From: a virus
DNA: 41,498 nt
IMG/VR virus record: IMGVR_UViG_3300042344_000264
Span: 1-41,498 of that record
Reading direction: 5' to 3' (one strand)
The translations under genes and the position numbers were made by a program. Shown piece by piece: positions 2,100-37,724 of the stretch. Position 1 is the stretch's first letter; each line of letters opens with the position of its first letter. The notes beneath the pieces are model-generated. The model had not been told where the DNA came from. It saw only the letters and a program-made list of their open reading frames with translations, and did no database searches.

Positions 2100-3152
2100 A
2101 TGGCACTTCTAACTGAACCTAATCTTAGTGGTCGCGGTAAACGCGAAGATCTGATGGACATGATTGCGCTTGTCGATGCAAAAGACACGCCGTTCACGTC
2201 TATGGCTCGTAAAGGCAGCAAGCCCGGGAATATGTATTTCCGCTGGCAGGCTGATAGCAATCCTGCGCCTCAAGTAGGCGGCACGGTTGACGGCACGGAC
2301 GTTAGCGCATACACCAACTGGGACGTGGGATACCGCGCCGAATTGGCAAACTACGCGCAGGTGTTCCGTATGCCTGCTGTCCGTGTGTCTAAGCTGTCTA
2401 CTGACATTGCCCAAGTGGCTGGTGTCCGTGATGAGCTGGCATACAACGTTAGCAAGTCTATCCTTCAGGCTAAACGCTCGATTGAGACGACTCTCTGCTC
2501 GAACCAGACTGCACAGCAGGATAACGGATCTGTTCCTTACCTCACGGCAGGGATTCAGACCTGGATCAGCACTACTGGTACTGGCACCCCAACTCCCGGC
2601 GACATCCCTTCGCAGTTTCGTACTCCTACGGACTCGATCTTGACTGGAGCAGCCAGCAGTTTGACCGACGTGGATGTGCAGGGTTTGCTTAAGAGTATCT
2701 ACAATCAGACTGGTCAGTACCGCTCGTTCGACGCCATTGTTGGCACCGACCTGAAGCGTGCATTCACCAGCCTGCTTGGCACAACTCAGTTGACTACGAC
2801 CTCCACTGCTGGAGTTCTTGGTGCAGGCGCAACGAAGGTGCAGACCTTCCAGCGCGATGCTGCTGCTGAGACGTACATCCAGTCCGTGGACGTGTTCCAG
2901 GGTGACTTTGGTACGGTCAAGCTGCACCCCACGGTGTTCCTTGGCACGATTAGCTCTGGTACATGGACTGTCACCCCGTACAAAGGTCTTGTCCTGAACA
3001 TGGACTTGATCGAAGTTCGCTACGGTGGAAACGTCGCCGCTGTGCAGTCACTGCCTGACTTCGGTGGCGGTCCTGCTCGCGTCGTAGAAGCCGTCTGCGG
3101 TCTAGTTGTTGGGAACCCATTGGGTCTTGGCAAGTTTGACTTCAGCTCGTAG
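2100..3152 (+). CDS. Major capsid protein, SU10/DUF5309-like HK97 fold
   Basis: 350 residues. The N-terminal stretch GRGKREDLMDMIALVDAKDT-PF, the following WQAD segment, the NYAQVFR and VRDELAYNVSKSI helices and the late LVLNMDLIEVRYGG segment match the pattern of the DUF5309/SU10 major capsid family, whose members have similar length. In that family the protein adopts the HK97 fold and forms the icosahedral shell. It follows the scaffold after a 43-base AT-rich gap without a Shine-Dalgarno. It is followed by a long structured intergenic region, consistent with high separate expression. The family assignment is from recognised pattern, not a search. Confidence 0.88.
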   Translation: MALLTEPNLSGRGKREDLMDMIALVDAKDTPFTSMARKGSKPGNMYFRWQADSNPAPQVGGTVDGTDVSAYTNWDVGYRAELANYAQVFRMPAVRVSKLSTDIAQVAGVRDELAYNVSKSILQAKRSIETTLCSNQTAQQDNGSVPYLTAGIQTWISTTGTGTPTPGDIPSQFRTPTDSILTGAASSLTDVDVQGLLKSIYNQTGQYRSFDAIVGTDLKRAFTSLLGTTQLTTTSTAGVLGAGATKVQTFQRDAAAETYIQSVDVFQGDFGTVKLHPTVFLGTISSGTWTVTPYKGLVLNMDLIEVRYGGNVAAVQSLPDFGGGPARVVEAVCGLVVGNPLGLGKFDFSS

Positions 3153-3340
3153 GCTTAGTATATGTGACCGTTCCCGCAGTATACTAGGACGGATCGAACG
3201 CCGGAAGCCCGCTAGGCGTGACACTCTGGAGAGACAGGGACAATTTTGCGACACCTGCCATTCTGTGTAACGGAATGCATGGTCTGGGAATTCCCGGACG
3301 GCGAGTGGTGTGACTGTTCGGAGAGTGAGAACACCATTTT
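3153..3340 (+). promoter_or_regulatory. Structured intergenic leader with repeated GTGACACT/GAGAGAC element
   Basis: This 188-base gap after the capsid gene has no ORF and several hairpins. TAGTATA 3156-3162 pairs with TATACTA 3180-3186. ACGCC 3198-3202 pairs with GGCGT 3215-3219, running into GTGACACT 3218-3225 and GAGAGAC 3229-3235. The block TTTTGCGACACCTGCC (3244-3259) recurs almost exactly at 27097-27112. A last hairpin pairs GGTGT near 3306 with ACACC just before the ATG at 3341. It lacks a terminator T-tract, so a cis-acting RNA leader or processing region is more likely than a simple terminator. Its role is unknown. Confidence 0.55.
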
Positions 3341-3688
3341 ATGATTGATATCGACCCTAGTCTAATTCCTGCAATGGAAACAGAGTTTCGTCGCGGCTGG
3401 CAAATGAATCGTATTCAGGCGGAGATTGATTCCAAGAACTCTGCCAAGTTTACAAAGATGCGCCACAAGTCGATTGACGGCATTGGCCAGAAGGTTGGCA
3501 GCATTCCTGGGCAAGCGTACCACTTTTGGGGACATAAACTCGGATACCAATGCTGGGATGACGAAAAGTTTCTTGCTGAATTCTGGAGAGATAATCCTCA
3601 GTGCAAAGTTAATTCTGGCGGCACAAAAGAAATTAGTGTAGGTTGGGTTCCATCCACTAACGTAAGATCCCGTACTGTCTACGCATGA
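3341..3688 (+). CDS. Hypothetical head or connector protein
   Basis: 115 residues starting MIDIDPSLIP. The middle (GQAYHFWGHKLGYQCWDDEKF) is rich in aromatics and looks like a compact soluble domain. The start at 3341 follows an AT-rich TTTT leader and the structured intergenic region. Its stop overlaps the next start by four bases (ATGA at 3685). I do not recognise a family. The gene lies just after the capsid gene and is coupled to a probable head-tail protein, so a structural or capsid-associated role is likely but inferred. Confidence 0.65.
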   Translation: MIDIDPSLIPAMETEFRRGWQMNRIQAEIDSKNSAKFTKMRHKSIDGIGQKVGSIPGQAYHFWGHKLGYQCWDDEKFLAEFWRDNPQCKVNSGGTKEISVGWVPSTNVRSRTVYA

Positions 3689-9600: not shown

Positions 9601-10998
9601 AAGGGCGGAACTGGAGCAACAGATGCCACGACTGCGTTAACAAACCTTGGAGCAGGAACGGTGACATCCGTTTCAGCGGGAACTGGATTAACTGGTGGAA
9701 CCATTACAACCAGCGGTACCATTGCGCTGTCGACAGCAGGGCCTGGAGCAATAACGGCAGGATCAAGTGCGGCTGTACCAGTCATTACGCTTGATGAATA
9801 TGGTCGAGTAAGTGCGCTTACAACAGCGCCCATTTCAGGAGGCGGAGGTGGTGGCACAGGAGAAGGGATGCAGTTTGCGGTTGTGCGTCATAATACGCAG
9901 GTTATTCCGGCCAGCGCTGGAACTGTAAACTTAAGCGCGTGGTCCAGCGGAGCAACAACCATTAATTTTTCTGCAACGCCTGCGTTTACGCTTGTTCCGG
10001 GAATGGTTATTAATGCAACCGGACTTAATACGATCGCAATCAGAACCGTAAACAGTCCGACGCAAGTTGTTTTGGCAAGTGGAGCAACTGCTGCCGGAGG
10101 TGCAGCAAGTAATGTTGCAGTTCAAAACACTACAACAACAACATTTAGAGTAACTGCTGGTGCTCTTCCCACATACGACGGAAGAACGCTTCAAGTTAAT
10201 GATGTTGTTTTTTTAAGCGCACAAGGCTCGGCTGGGGCAACAACGCCAACTGCTCAAAACGGCCCTTGGGTAGTAACAAGCCTTGGAGCAACAGGTGTAT
10301 CTGCTGTATTTACTCGTCCAAGTTGGTTTACAGGAACTATTAGTGGACCAAGATCAATCGGCATTACTGGAGGCACATCCAATTACGGATACACACTTAG
10401 TATTACTGGAAACATTGCAGGAAATACATCCTATCTTGTGGGTGTAGATCCGTTAATTACGACTGTAATTGTAAGCAGAGCTACGCTTGCAGTCCTTAAT
10501 GCGCAGAGCTTTGTTGGAAGACAAACATTTGCAGCAAACACAACAACGGTTAACCCGTTTAGCTTCTCCGCCACCGCCAGCCAAGCGCTATTGTCAAGCA
10601 CTGCAGTAGGTGCTGTCGAGTGGGATACCCAGCAAATGTATGTCACTAGCTTGACTGGCGCTGGGCAAACTCGCAATCCCATTGCGACATCAATGCTGAT
10701 AATAAACAGTCAAGCTGCAAGTTACTCACTTGTGCTTGGCGACGCAGGTAAGATGATCCTTGTAACCAGTTCATCTGCCACAACAATAACCATTCCGCCT
10801 TCAAGCGCTCACAACTTTTCAATAGGCACTCAAATTCTTGTTATGCAATATGGAACTGCTCAGGTAACTATTGCAGCAGCAAGTGGAGTTACTTTAAACT
10901 TCAAAAATGGCTTTACCACATCCGGGCAATACGCTGTAATTTCGCTAATTAAAATTGGCACAGATACTTGGGTTGTTGCAGGAGACGCCACTTTATGA
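6673..10998 (+). CDS. Giant tail fibre protein 2 (1441 residues)
   Basis: The largest gene here. The N-terminus (MPDIKISALPTASIVNDAD) is the attachment-type domain also seen in fibre 1. NGGTGATDAVSALTNLGG-like modules occur near 6889, 8006, 9385 and 9595. ITPASIG and VPVITLDEYGRVSALTT-like modules alternate between them. A domain with QNGPWVVT and TRPSWFTGTI signatures is present twice, about 7430-7790 and 10100-10450. A unique beta-rich insertion lies at about 8260-8760. The C-terminal part resembles a collar or trimer-tip domain. The role is a host-binding fibre. The gene overlaps the glycine-rich protein gene by four bases. By eye, codons at 8160-9560 end more often in G or C than the flanks, suggesting domain-level mosaicism. 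Confidence 0.85.
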   Translation: MPDIKISALPTASIVNDADIVVLNQGGQTKTATKSLIVAGLANTTQVSALITQQIAGITPASIGAVATSDVIAISNGGTGATDAVSALTNLGGITSAQVPAFDTSQLSAYVQKAGGTMEGRLIMAATTDQAKANIGGALAGVAAPASSIAGDVWVSNQSKLTFSPSTGTAVTLAGLSQQNTFNQTQTIGVGGAVSSLVVSNNGTGRAATFAANSTAAAVTITQTGTGAALSVDSKGILFYDNTTQSGATSHLAVDLAAIVNQAGTLNTGVTPNTFTYATFGGVQLDGNAIGVGTTAIFTTQADARQNGPWIVTQANSGSSGFVLTRPTWFSGTIRQGATVSIGTGNTRSGYIYNVGKSTSGFVTVGADNIAVSVLNYNQNALTTAQISGFATTTQLGGYATTSQIVGIATTSQLSGFATTEQLDGYATTTQISTLQPALTSSAPLAISGGGTGATTAVAALTSLGAMSATQAAGGDLSGNLPNPTVAKLQGISVTNVTPLDGQVLQYDTATSSWVAGAVPNGGSGGGGQMFFFNYNTAADAPTTGLPTTPTIVKELGRVSDTTGTSYTSGDLPTTGYDLVVHFVTDVLDPNITAIPAGLFDFNFWASSTGTTSNETIVQLKVFKYDGTTATLIATSDDISIYDPAVSAQYIASVVVPQTTVALNDRLYIQLLAKGTTNNRTITFNFGATKPSHVHTTIPSVGGSGLVKVINGVFQSPASKLLNEDVATNAAISLSKLAMSEVSVLAGDGLTGGGDLSTSRTIALQTTGIAAITAGSSSVVPVITTNIYGQITALTTEAIPAGTSGTVTSITAGTGLTGGTITSDGIIALETAGPGVLTNVGSSAAVPVISVDAYGRISALETASLSGLGTVTSIAMTSQVSGLSFTPTSAITSNGTFNLTGTLDVSNGGTGATDAPSALNNLGGITSAALNGYAVTSQLAAFQNSAQVQSLASAQIAAITPASIGAVATSDIIGISKGGTGATDATTALTNLGAGTVTSVSAGTGLTGGTITTSGTIALSTAGPGAITAGSSAAVPVITLDEYGRVSALTTAPISGGGGGGTGEGMQFAVVRHNTQVIPASAGTVNLSAWSSGATTINFSATPAFTLVPGMVINATGLNTIAIRTVNSPTQVVLASGATAAGGAASNVAVQNTTTTTFRVTAGALPTYDGRTLQVNDVVFLSAQGSAGATTPTAQNGPWVVTSLGATGVSAVFTRPSWFTGTISGPRSIGITGGTSNYGYTLSITGNIAGNTSYLVGVDPLITTVIVSRATLAVLNAQSFVGRQTFAANTTTVNPFSFSATASQALLSSTAVGAVEWDTQQMYVTSLTGAGQTRNPIATSMLIINSQAASYSLVLGDAGKMILVTSSSATTITIPPSSAHNFSIGTQILVMQYGTAQVTIAAASGVTLNFKNGFTTSGQYAVISLIKIGTDTWVVAGDATL

Positions 10999-11840
10999 TT
11001 GCACTTTTAGGTTCACTAAAGCCAATTTCTATACCTCCGCCTCCGGTATCTCCGTTTAATTTAGATTATCTTGTTGTTGCAGGCGGAGGTGGGGGAGGAG
11101 GCGCGTTTCCAGGAAATAATTTTGCAAGTGGCGGTGGTGGCGCAGGTGGATATTTATCTGCGACTGCAACATTAAGCAACTTATTAACTTTTAGTGTAAT
11201 TGTAGGAGCTGGAGGGACAACGGCAACTCTTGCTCAAACTAATGGATTTAGTGGATCAAATAGTATTTTTAAATCTTCTCTTTTATCTGTAACTTCAACT
11301 GGTGGAGGTGGGGGAGGATTAAATGGAGGATCTGGTGGCGGAAATTATGCCGATAATGCAGCAGGCACTGGCGTTTCTGGGCAGGGGTTTAATGGAGCAA
11401 ATGGGCCTGGACCGGGTGAATGTGGTGCAGGTGGGGGTGCTGGAGAGGCTGGTGGATCTGGCGCAACAACAGCAAAGGGTGGCGACGGGTTAACTTGGCT
11501 TGATGGGATAACAAGAGCAGGCGGGGGAGGAGGAAGCAGATACGCTCTTTCAGTAGGTGGAGCACTTAGTGGACCCGGTGGAGCTGGTGGCGGAGGAAGA
11601 GGTGCAAATTCGGATGTTGTTCCAGCGGTTACTTCTATTGCAGGAACAGTAAATACAGGATCTGGCGGAGGTGTTGGATGGCCAGTTGGGGGTTATGAAA
11701 ATGGAGCAGCGGGTGGCTCTGGCATTGTAAAAGTCCGCTATGTTGGAACTCCACGCGCAACTGGCGGCACGATTACTCAAAGTGGCGGATTTACATATCA
11801 CGAGTTTACATCTTCTGGCAGATTGATATTTACTTCTTAA
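10995..11840 (+). CDS. Glycine-rich tail tip / receptor-binding protein A
   Basis: 281 residues from ATG 10995, which overlaps the fibre stop as ATGA. A longer in-frame start upstream would overlap the fibre gene and is not favoured. After a short N-terminus, LDYLVVAGGGGGGG opens a long region of GGGGAGG-type runs, as in glycine-rich phage adhesins of the T4 gp38-like type that fold as polyglycine II bundles. The C-terminus FTYHEFTSSGRLIFTS is the usual strand motif that closes this domain. In that family the protein sits at the fibre tip and determines host range. The direct coupling to the giant fibre supports this. The gene at 16658 is a clear relative. Confidence 0.75.
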   Translation: MIALLGSLKPISIPPPPVSPFNLDYLVVAGGGGGGGAFPGNNFASGGGGAGGYLSATATLSNLLTFSVIVGAGGTTATLAQTNGFSGSNSIFKSSLLSVTSTGGGGGGLNGGSGGGNYADNAAGTGVSGQGFNGANGPGPGECGAGGGAGEAGGSGATTAKGGDGLTWLDGITRAGGGGGSRYALSVGGALSGPGGAGGGGRGANSDVVPAVTSIAGTVNTGSGGGVGWPVGGYENGAAGGSGIVKVRYVGTPRATGGTITQSGGFTYHEFTSSGRLIFTS

Positions 11841-16657: not shown

Positions 16658-17539
16658 ATGTTTTCAAAAGCTTTAAACTTTCTTTCTTCATCTTCTTCCT
16701 TAAGCGCGGCTACTAACATTTTACTTGTAGCAGGAGGAGGGGGAGGCGGAGCGCGTCTTGGCGGGGGAGGCGGAGGTGGGGGAGGGTTTGTCTCACAGTC
16801 TGGAGTTCAATTTGACGTTGGGTTTTCGTATCCTGTGATCGTTGGAAGCGGTGGTGCCGCATCTGGCGGTTTAGGCAATAGTGGAACAAGTTCTGAGGTT
16901 AATGGGTATTCATCCGCTGGAGGAGGTGGCGGGGCTATTGGCCAATTTGACGCTTCAGGCGCAAATGGGCTAAATGGTGGATGTGGTGGAGGTGGAGCCA
17001 CTGAATCTACCATTGTTGGAAATGGAGGTTTTGGAAACACTCCATTCTTAGTTTCAATTCAAGGATACAATGGCGGCACTGGAGCGGTTTTATCTACTAA
17101 CTATTTTGGCGGCGGTGGAGGAGGAGCAGGGGCTATTGGAGGAAATGCTACAACTACCGTAGCTGGAACTGGAGGAGCAGGCCGTTCTATTTCAGTTGCA
17201 GGTGGAGCTGCTGTGATTTATGGCGGAGGAGGAGGTGGCGGAAGAACCACAGCCGGGGGTGGGCGTGCCGCTGGCGGAACAGGCGGAGGTGGTGGCGGAG
17301 GATATGCTGGTCCGGGAGGCACTGGAGATGGAGTAAACGGAACCGTAAATCTTGGCGGGGGAGGCGGAGGTGGGGGATATTTATCTACTGGTGGAAGTGG
17401 CGGCTCAGGTATAATAAAAATTTGGTACACATCTCCATCTAGGGCTACAATCACTGGCACTGGCAACACAACAGCAGCAGTTGGCGGATTTACGGTGCAC
17501 ACATTTATCACTTCAGGAACCATTACGTTTTCTGCTTAG
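16658..17539 (+). CDS. Glycine-rich tail tip / receptor-binding protein B
   Basis: 293 residues. A short N-terminus leads to ILLVAGGGGGGARLGGGGGG and many more polyglycine runs. The protein ends VGGFTVHTFITSGTITFSA, the same closing motif as the 10995 gene product. Several inner phrases (SYPVIVGSGG, GGSGIIKIWY) also have counterparts in that protein (FSVIVGAGG, GGSGIVKVRY), so the two are paralogues. The expected fold is a polyglycine II bundle with exposed variable loops, as in gp38-type adhesins. It lies two bases after fibre 3, with no Shine-Dalgarno. Confidence 0.75.
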   Translation: MFSKALNFLSSSSSLSAATNILLVAGGGGGGARLGGGGGGGGGFVSQSGVQFDVGFSYPVIVGSGGAASGGLGNSGTSSEVNGYSSAGGGGGAIGQFDASGANGLNGGCGGGGATESTIVGNGGFGNTPFLVSIQGYNGGTGAVLSTNYFGGGGGGAGAIGGNATTTVAGTGGAGRSISVAGGAAVIYGGGGGGGRTTAGGGRAAGGTGGGGGGGYAGPGGTGDGVNGTVNLGGGGGGGGYLSTGGSGGSGIIKIWYTSPSRATITGTGNTTAAVGGFTVHTFITSGTITFSA

Positions 17540-26773: not shown

Positions 26774-27104
26774 AGGCTGCCGTGGAGAACGCCTCTGGCG
26801 CGACATGCTCAGGGGAGCTGGCTTCACCGCAAGGCGGGGCCAGCAATTCTCTGGGGGATCTGACAGCCCAGATGTTATCTGTGACGAACTGCGCAACCTT
26901 CACATGGAGGTTAAGTTTGTTGAATCCCTCAATCTTGAGAAAGCCTGCGAGCAGGCTGATCGGGATCGGGGAGTCAAACCTTATATTGTTGCTCACAAAA
27001 AGAGCAGAAGCTATTGGAAGGTAACAATGGATGCCCATTTCTTCTTTCAACTATTGCGAGAAGGAATGGATGCTTGCAAGGAAGAGTACCATCCTATTTT
27101 GTGA
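26748..27104 (+). CDS. PD-(D/E)XK nuclease, Holliday-junction resolvase-like
   Basis: 118 residues. GERLWRDMLRGAGF (about 13-26, Glu14), SPDVI (40-44, Asp42) and MEVKFVES (53-60, Glu54 and Lys56) give the Glu, Asp, Glu-x-Lys active site of small resolvase-type PD-(D/E)XK nucleases. A helix follows, then a beta strand YIVAHKKSRSYWKVTM. Phage enzymes of this kind resolve branched replication intermediates before packaging. Its TGA lies inside the repeated block TTTTGTGACACCTGCC at 27097-27112. Confidence 0.75.
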   Translation: MPKINSRAKGCRGERLWRDMLRGAGFTARRGQQFSGGSDSPDVICDELRNLHMEVKFVESLNLEKACEQADRDRGVKPYIVAHKKSRSYWKVTMDAHFFFQLLREGMDACKEEYHPIL

Positions 27105-27217
27105 CACCTGCCCCGCTGGTTTCCGGCGAGACAGCATAATTCTCTGACGAGAGATCGGGAACGCCGCCAAGAGTCAATGGGCGTGACACTGGGAGAGACT
27201 AGGATAAATGCAAAATT
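27097..27217 (+). promoter_or_regulatory. Second structured leader with the repeated elements
   Basis: The block TTTTGTGACACCTGCC (27097-27112) matches 3244-3259 at 15 of 16 bases. Hairpins follow: GCTGG/CCGGC near 27115-27127, TCTCT-GACG-AGAGA at 27141-27154, and ACGCC (27161-27165) pairing with GGCGT (27180-27184). This last hairpin runs into GTGACACT (27183-27190) and GGGAGAGAC (27191-27199). The order of the two blocks is reversed relative to 3153-3340. The element ends 18 bases before the ATG at 27218. Confidence 0.55.
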
Positions 27218-27373
27218 ATGACGAAACAACAAATTACAGACAACGTGCAGCGCAGAATGGCTTCATACAACAAGTTATTGGGCCAAAAGGAAATTACAGA
27301 GTTTCAATATGTTGAGATGGCTTATCGTATGCTTGATTACTGGATGAGTGTAATTCGCGATCGGATCGCGTGA
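27218..27373 (+). CDS. Small hypothetical protein flanked by two leader elements
   Basis: 51 residues: MTKQQITDNVQRRMASYNKL then LGQKEITEFQYVEMAYRMLDY and WMSVIRDRIA. It is helical, with a balanced charge pattern. Its leader contains the repeated GTGACACT element, and its own last codons and TGA form the hairpin and first bases of the next copy (27356-27377). The frame is open with ordinary codons, which supports a real gene. Function is unknown. Confidence 0.6.
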   Translation: MTKQQITDNVQRRMASYNKLLGQKEITEFQYVEMAYRMLDYWMSVIRDRIA

Positions 27374-27430
27374 CACTGAGAGAGACTTCTGCACCAATGC
27401 AGAGGCGCGACTGCACAACGCGCACAATTT
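27356..27430 (+). promoter_or_regulatory. Third copy of hairpin plus GTGACACT/GAGAGAC element
   Basis: CGCGAT (27356-27361), loop CGG and ATCGCG (27365-27370) make a perfect six-pair hairpin whose bases differ from the ACGCC/GGCGT stems of the other two copies. GTGACACT (27370-27377) and GAGAGAGAC (27378-27386) follow directly. Further hairpins TCTGCA-ccaa-TGCAGA and GCGCG/CGCGC precede the start at 27431. Confidence 0.55.
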
Positions 27431-37359: not shown

Positions 37360-37724
37360 TAAACAATCCGGCAAGAAGAGTTGCGAGTGAGCATAGTACC
37401 CCCAAGAATCAGCATTACTGCCTACGCTTGGGGGAGTACTATACAAAAAGGAGATCAACGATCCGTATAAGTGTCGTCGTTTCGTTTCGCAATTACAGTC
37501 GTGAGTGATGGCTACCCGTTCGGGAAACTCTTGCCCTTCTCGTAGGCGTGACTGTCAGCACTCTGCAACTTTGAGACCGATGCAGATGTTTAATCCAGCT
37601 CAAGAGGAATAGCTGGAACCATTTAGTCGCTCGTGCGTCCGATGTTTCAGGTGGCGCAGAAGGTACACGGTCGTTTATTTGACGACAGAGAGAATTTAGA
37701 GCATCTTCAGGGAAAGTCAACACT
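37360..37724 (+). other. Hairpin-rich leader of the terminase gene (365 bases)
   Basis: No supported gene. CCGGA pairs with TCCGG around 37351-37372. ATAGTA plus CCCCCAAG (37393-37406) pairs with CTTGGGGG and TACTAT (37427-37442) across a 20-base loop, with two bulged bases. CCCG-TT-CGGG lies near 37516. TAGGCGTGAC near 37545 repeats ten bases of the 3214 element. CCAGCT pairs with AGCTGG near 37595-37616. GTCGT and ACGAC near 37669-37685 are followed by AGAGAGA. A minus-strand frame (37493-37723) is not convincing. This looks like a structured untranslated leader. Confidence 0.5.

Follow-up and report, generated by a model that had tools for sequence, protein, structure and literature searches.

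The window, which is the whole stretch of 41,498 nt of viral DNA analysed here, carries a major capsid protein gene followed by an untranslated gap in which two copies of a recurring element, elements A and B, stand in tandem ahead of the next gene. A third copy, element C, lies near 27.1 kb. The portal gene is split over both ends of the window, and the record therefore looks circularly permuted. The features discussed below are as follows.

2100–3152, + strand: major capsid protein gene, preceding the array (phrog_1328, E 2.6e-36)
3153–3340, + strand: untranslated gap between the capsid gene and the next gene (3341–3688), with elements A and B
from 3163, + strand: GTGACC, possible 5' partner of element A
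3193–3241, + strand: element A, type 2 (R1 25.3 bits, E 5e-5 over 3163–3241; R2 32 bits)
3198–3202 and 3215–3219, + strand: helix P1 of element A, ACGCC/GGCGT
3220–3222, + strand: linker GAC of element A
3224–3228 and 3235–3239, + strand: hairpin P2 of element A, CTCTG/CAGGG, with loop GAGAGA at 3229–3234
3247–3334, + strand: element B, type 1, top R1 match of the window (31.5 bits, E 1.6e-6)
3251–3255 and 3307–3311, + strand: helix P1 of element B, ACACC/GGTGT, enclosing two hairpins
3312–3314, + strand: linker GAC of element B
3315–3319 and 3329–3333, + strand: hairpin P2 of element B, TGTTC/GAACA, with the 9-nt loop GGAGAGTGA
3341, + strand: start codon of the gene downstream of element B
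27100–27205, + strand: element C (R1 30.6 bits, E 2.6e-6)
27161–27165 and 27180–27184, + strand: helix P1 of element C, ACGCC/GGCGT
27189–27192 and 27199–27202, + strand: hairpin P2 of element C, CTGG/CTAG, with loop GAGAGA at 27193–27198
27218, + strand: start of the ORF downstream of element C
27356–27386, + strand: stem CGCGAT/ATCGCG plus GTGACACTGAGAGAGAC; P2 not formed in the fold (R1 6.3 bits, E 2.7)

R1 is a covariance model built from alignment A3, which comprises 24 sequences of other contigs and none from the window; its matches at 3247–3334, 27100–27205 and 3163–3241 are not due to chance. In a whole-window search, GTGACACT and GAGAGAC occur exactly three times each and always as neighbours (3218–3235, 27183–27199 and 27370–27386), as the initial annotation had reported. 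That annotation regarded all three sites as copies of one element. Two of them, at 3193–3241 and 27100–27205, are real, while the site at 27356–27386 scores at background and is probably a decayed or chance copy, since its second hairpin is unpaired and its GTGA shares bases with the stop codon that ends a 51-aa ORF (27218–27373). The list was also incomplete: element B, a full copy, was overlooked because its loop reads GGAGAGTGA. Element A recurs with the same or nearly the same sequence in tens of relatives. Element C joins a type-1 5' half (GTGACACCTGCC) to a full type-2 element, and comparison with L006, where the two-element arrangement is intact, suggests that an internal deletion produced this form. 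A long untranslated stretch ahead of the terminase gene (37480–37720) contains AGGCGTGACTGTCAGC; it stays under the model threshold and may hold a diverged copy of the element or some other structured RNA. Elsewhere in the window, the ORFs at 10968–11840 and 16658–17539 both match phrog_2295, which suggests that they are paralogous virion genes.

The elements share an architecture in which helix P1 (ACACC/GGUGU or ACGCC/GGCGU, with a variable interior) is followed by (U)GAC and then by hairpin P2. The stem of P2 varies freely, and its loop is constant, reading GAGAGA, or GAAAGA and GAAGAGA in other phages. The stem originally singled out is not the sole hairpin; the key, conserved one lies one helix further downstream, directly after GTGAC, and is closed by the GAGAGA loop. 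Among 134 distinct P2 instances, collected by a pattern that left the stem free and not picked for pairing, all three inner pairs are present in 116, as opposed to a mean of 20 in shuffles (maximum 31). An alignment of 147 hits is 95.1% paired, compared with at most 52% in slid controls; this alignment was fitted to the model, and the 134-instance test is the cleaner of the two. A selected seed agrees with the P2 covariation, its sequences having been chosen with the structure in mind. Compensatory changes in helix P1 are less numerous, yet genuine (ACACC/GGUGU to ACGCC/GGCGU); in the P2-selected set the helix is weakly supported and pairs in 22 of 103 of the matches listed (11.4 expected, maximum 23). 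UGAC and P2 are therefore regarded as the core, and helix P1 as variable. Taken together, a structured RNA with compensatory changes is strongly supported by these comparisons. The earlier proposal that pairing is kept while bases change holds for the element, whereas the CGCGAT/ATCGCG stem offered as its example comes from a poor member. Just upstream of the element in phage P1, cdtI, mEp390, phiV10 and many E. coli prophages lies a second conserved RNA domain, GGCACAUGnnnCG..AGCGG..CCGGAAUGUGCAAG, with covarying pairs of its own (L410 2355–2532; also L411, L715 and other enterobacterial loci).

A capsid-protein search of IMG/VR yielded 243 relatives. Their post-capsid gaps are mosaics built from modules that read GCGACACCTGC-[variable hairpins]-AGTGGTGTGAC-[stem]-GGAGAGAC-[stem'] or, alternatively, contain AACGCC..GGCGTGAC. 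The 59 delimited gaps contain 26 distinct arrays with zero to four modules each by strict pattern, and two phages can carry different arrays even at a capsid-gene identity as high as 99.7%. Of the 16 related whole records searched, one being that of the window, none lacks a copy; the gap homologous to 3153–3340 contains the element in these records, and all 45 copies share the strand of the capsid gene of their record. Around copies in unrelated contigs, the main ORF downstream reads in sense orientation in 58 cases and antisense in 8. The initial annotation had left the choice between an RNA and a DNA cruciform open; since copies follow the capsid-gene strand and are sense to downstream ORFs, the cruciform is disfavoured and the RNA level indicated.

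Further copies were found both in relatives and in unrelated phages, and the two outcomes that, according to the original observation, could have told against the element, an absence of more copies and an absence of covariation, were clearly not what was found. The pattern GTGGTGTGAC-N4-6-GGAGAGAC and the exact 22-mer TGACAGCCGGGARAGACCGGCA each have at least 120 matches in IMG/VR. The 22-mer occurs in at least 103 clearly different, unrelated flanking contexts, and its constancy in these flanks suggests a conserved host partner. Annotated carriers include mEp390, phage P1 and its relatives, cdtI and phiV10, together with phages of Klebsiella, Cronobacter, Stenotrophomonas, Acinetobacter, Pseudomonas, Phaeobacter and Vibrio, phages recorded from cyanobacteria, phage-plasmids and MOBP conjugative plasmids. 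The enterobacterial version, which has an extra 5' domain, was detected by blastn with the phage P1 sequence as query, and 1816 of the 5426 complete E. coli genomes carry it. Surveys in which few candidates were scored per genome found the element in 3 of 274 gammaproteobacterial and 3 of 240 alphaproteobacterial genomes and in 0 of 247 and 0 of 249 genomes of the phyla of Emticicia and Faecalicatena, zeros that weigh little because of this low number of candidates. A pattern scan of genome contigs returned mostly chance matches, with a P2 of at least 4 bp in 15 of 119 stretches, only some of them convincing.

The elements occupy untranslated gaps on the coding strand, often in tandem. These gaps lie between the major capsid protein gene and the next gene, between lysis and terminase genes, within tRNA arrays and in early leaders. 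A tRNA is found within 500 nt of 17 of 98 elements (5.9 expected), in all 17 cases on the strand of the element. Phage P1 carries a copy in the leader ahead of ban, other copies precede terminase genes, and in several phages, cdtI included, leader copies adjoin the repressor gene. Positions resembling nutL, putL or nutR are occupied in mEp390, P7641, ST147phi7.2, BUCT708, Medea1, Cruim01 and E. coli prophages. The downstream genes (ban, terminase, tRNAs, replication genes, plasmid genes) are unrelated to each other, which argues against gene-specific control, and the distance from the element to the start codon ranges from about 20 to more than 400 nt. Within the window, the initial annotation had pointed to the missing Shine-Dalgarno sequence of the genes behind each copy. 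This argument is uninformative, because the absence is a genome-wide feature: such a sequence was seen in only 4 of 38 genes checked, 34 lacking one, and gene starts are AT-rich.

The early leaders exhibit a recurrent order of promoter, element and terminator, which is found in cdtI, phiV10, mEp390, Medea1 and other loci and not in the window, where the stretch from the array to the next gene showed no intrinsic terminator. In cdtI, the cI gene is followed by a terminator, a TTGACA/CATAAT promoter, the element, a terminator hairpin and the first gene. Here the element lies about 50 nt after the near-consensus promoter, and the terminator (GGCGGTACCAG..CTGGTACCGCT+CTTTTT) lies 235 nt downstream of the element. 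The same placement, between a pL-like promoter and a terminator before the first gene, is found in mEp390 and similar phages. Of 17 annotated loci, 7 have an intrinsic terminator between the element and the gene that follows, where 0.3 would be expected; among distinct enterobacterial loci the figure is 7 of 18, with an expectation of 0.4. These leader terminators lie mostly 226–309 nt downstream of the element, and their stems differ yet stay complementary. One terminator hairpin, GGCGGU..ACCGCC + CTTTTT, recurs about 230 nt downstream with inner stems that change and remain complementary (L715, about 2864–2908; also L716, L593, L596 and L633). A pooled scan of 98 loci counted 18 sense terminators downstream and 6 upstream, as opposed to 16 and 5 antisense, and thus no sense-specific enrichment. 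The association with terminators therefore holds for early leaders and may not extend to late-gene copies such as those in the window.

With moderate confidence, the element is best explained as a cis-acting RNA antitermination element of put-like design that is not a put homologue, a reading based on sequence comparison. It is favoured by the P2 covariation, by the strand bias, by the order of promoter, element and terminator, with the terminator too far away for folding competition, and by the invariance of the hairpin in unrelated phages, together with its occurrence in tRNA arrays and other untranslated gaps. The element would be made as part of phage operon transcripts, and the nascent folded RNA, probably P2 and UGAC, would be recognised by RNA polymerase itself or by some other conserved factor of the host. 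The elongating polymerase would thereby be converted to a form resistant to termination and pausing and could then pass terminators and Rho-prone untranslated gaps such as those in pL leaders, tRNA arrays, lysis-terminase junctions and post-capsid regions. In the window, elements A and B may sustain transcription past the capsid gene and into the structural genes behind it, and element C may carry the polymerase through the early region. Against it stand the pooled scan without sense-specific enrichment, the window gap in which no intrinsic terminator follows the array, the weak pairing of helix P1 in the P2-selected set and the lack of similarity to put. Further counter-evidence comes from PS3 and Alexa (L412 2501–2583 and L422 1789–2150, respectively), where the element lies behind the integrase gene and is followed by a terminator and genes in convergent orientation, an arrangement reminiscent of lambda int-sib. 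Tentatively, the proposal can be taken further: the antiterminator RNA would need no protein, would have no relation to put, would act on host RNA polymerase directly and would be common to phages, phage-plasmids and conjugative plasmids of many proteobacteria, phage P1 included.

An unlikely alternative, though the best of those considered, is a role in RNA processing or mRNA stability, with hairpins that mark or protect transcript ends in an RNase E, RNase III or RNase P context and so set apart tRNAs or a strongly expressed capsid mRNA from the remaining transcript. The stable tandem hairpins and their location directly after the capsid gene and inside tRNA arrays fit this reading, but it requires neither an invariant loop nor UGAC and leaves the promoter-element-terminator leaders unexplained. 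Rather less credence is given to an operator for a widespread RNA-binding protein that controls transcription or translation of the next gene, including an N-like antiterminator acting on a non-lambda boxB-like hairpin. Its 5-bp stem and purine loop are of boxB-like size and the positions are nut-like, but start codons follow at widely varying distances, the next genes are unrelated, and the boxA consensus YGCTCTTW lies within 100 nt of only 4 of 98 elements (0.75 expected); moreover, an exact P2 common to unrelated phages speaks against a phage-specific protein. A new self-cleaving ribozyme or ligand-binding aptamer, although in keeping with the compact two-helix fold, the invariant unpaired bases and the tandem copies, is improbable given that no Rfam ribozyme or riboswitch matches and the downstream genes have no common pathway. 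A DNA-level module exchanged between phages, such as a recombination, packaging or origin hairpin, would account for the swaps between phages with near-identical capsid genes and is nevertheless very improbable in view of the strict strand bias with transcription.

To our knowledge, RNA-only processive antitermination in phages is known essentially from HK022 put. If the antitermination reading is correct, HK022 would be no special case: RNA-mediated antitermination would be widespread, and its common form would be a short hairpin present in prophages or phage-plasmids of about a third of complete E. coli genomes, in phage P1 and in many environmental phages. For phage P1, antiterminators are strongly suspected and no protein is known (PMC10695390); the element could explain how this phage antiterminates. 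It is also a short, portable part with a clear consensus. In any case, it constitutes an undescribed phage RNA family of the Rfam type, and, should the mechanism be confirmed, it would be a form of RNA-mediated antitermination that is new and much more widely distributed. No description of the element was found by motif letters or topic, and subscription papers could hold one.

Comparison with known systems supports the absence of a known family noted at the outset: Rfam 15 gives no match in the window at E<=1 and none at the element loci in relatives, which rejects its families, including ribozymes, riboswitches, C4 and isrK. The prophage RNAs isrK and C4 antisense RNA (RF01394 and RF01695) do lie within a few kb of an enterobacterial element on the opposite strand (L599 2965–3153; L602 3354–3539), but these are separate loci and the element itself matches neither. 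GTGACACT resembles a T7/SP6-like promoter, a reading rejected in view of the compensatory stem changes and because a scan of the window proteins other than small ORFs turned up no phage RNA polymerase. P2 was likewise rejected as an intrinsic terminator, a U-run directly following the hairpin in only 13 of 98 cases. The Bacillus EAR and LoaP-type processive antitermination RNAs are leader RNAs before long operons; they differ from the element, which has no Rfam match, in hosts and structure. The lambda nut site (boxA-boxB, bound by N) resembles the element in its leader position and small purine-loop hairpin, whereas the element has a 6–7 nt loop and an adjoining helix P1. No N-like gene is annotated in the cdtI leader, and a lambda-type nut site is rejected, as boxA does not regularly accompany the hairpin. 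HK022 put acts on RNA polymerase, through the beta' zinc-binding domain, without a phage protein. It is a cis RNA of about 70 nt with two stem-loops that lies immediately behind early promoters and ahead of terminators, in a phage that lacks an N-type factor (PMC9378689). The element likewise has two stem-loops, helix P1 and P2, between an early promoter and terminators. Homology to put is not supported, as neither R1 nor R2 has a match at E<=1 in the HK022 genome; in contrast to put, the invariant part of the element is UGAC with a GAGAGA-type loop, and the element ranges over many groups of phages, frequently as tandem copies, with late operons and tRNA arrays among its sites. HK022 put thus serves as the functional model for the proposed action, which the element would achieve via a different RNA.
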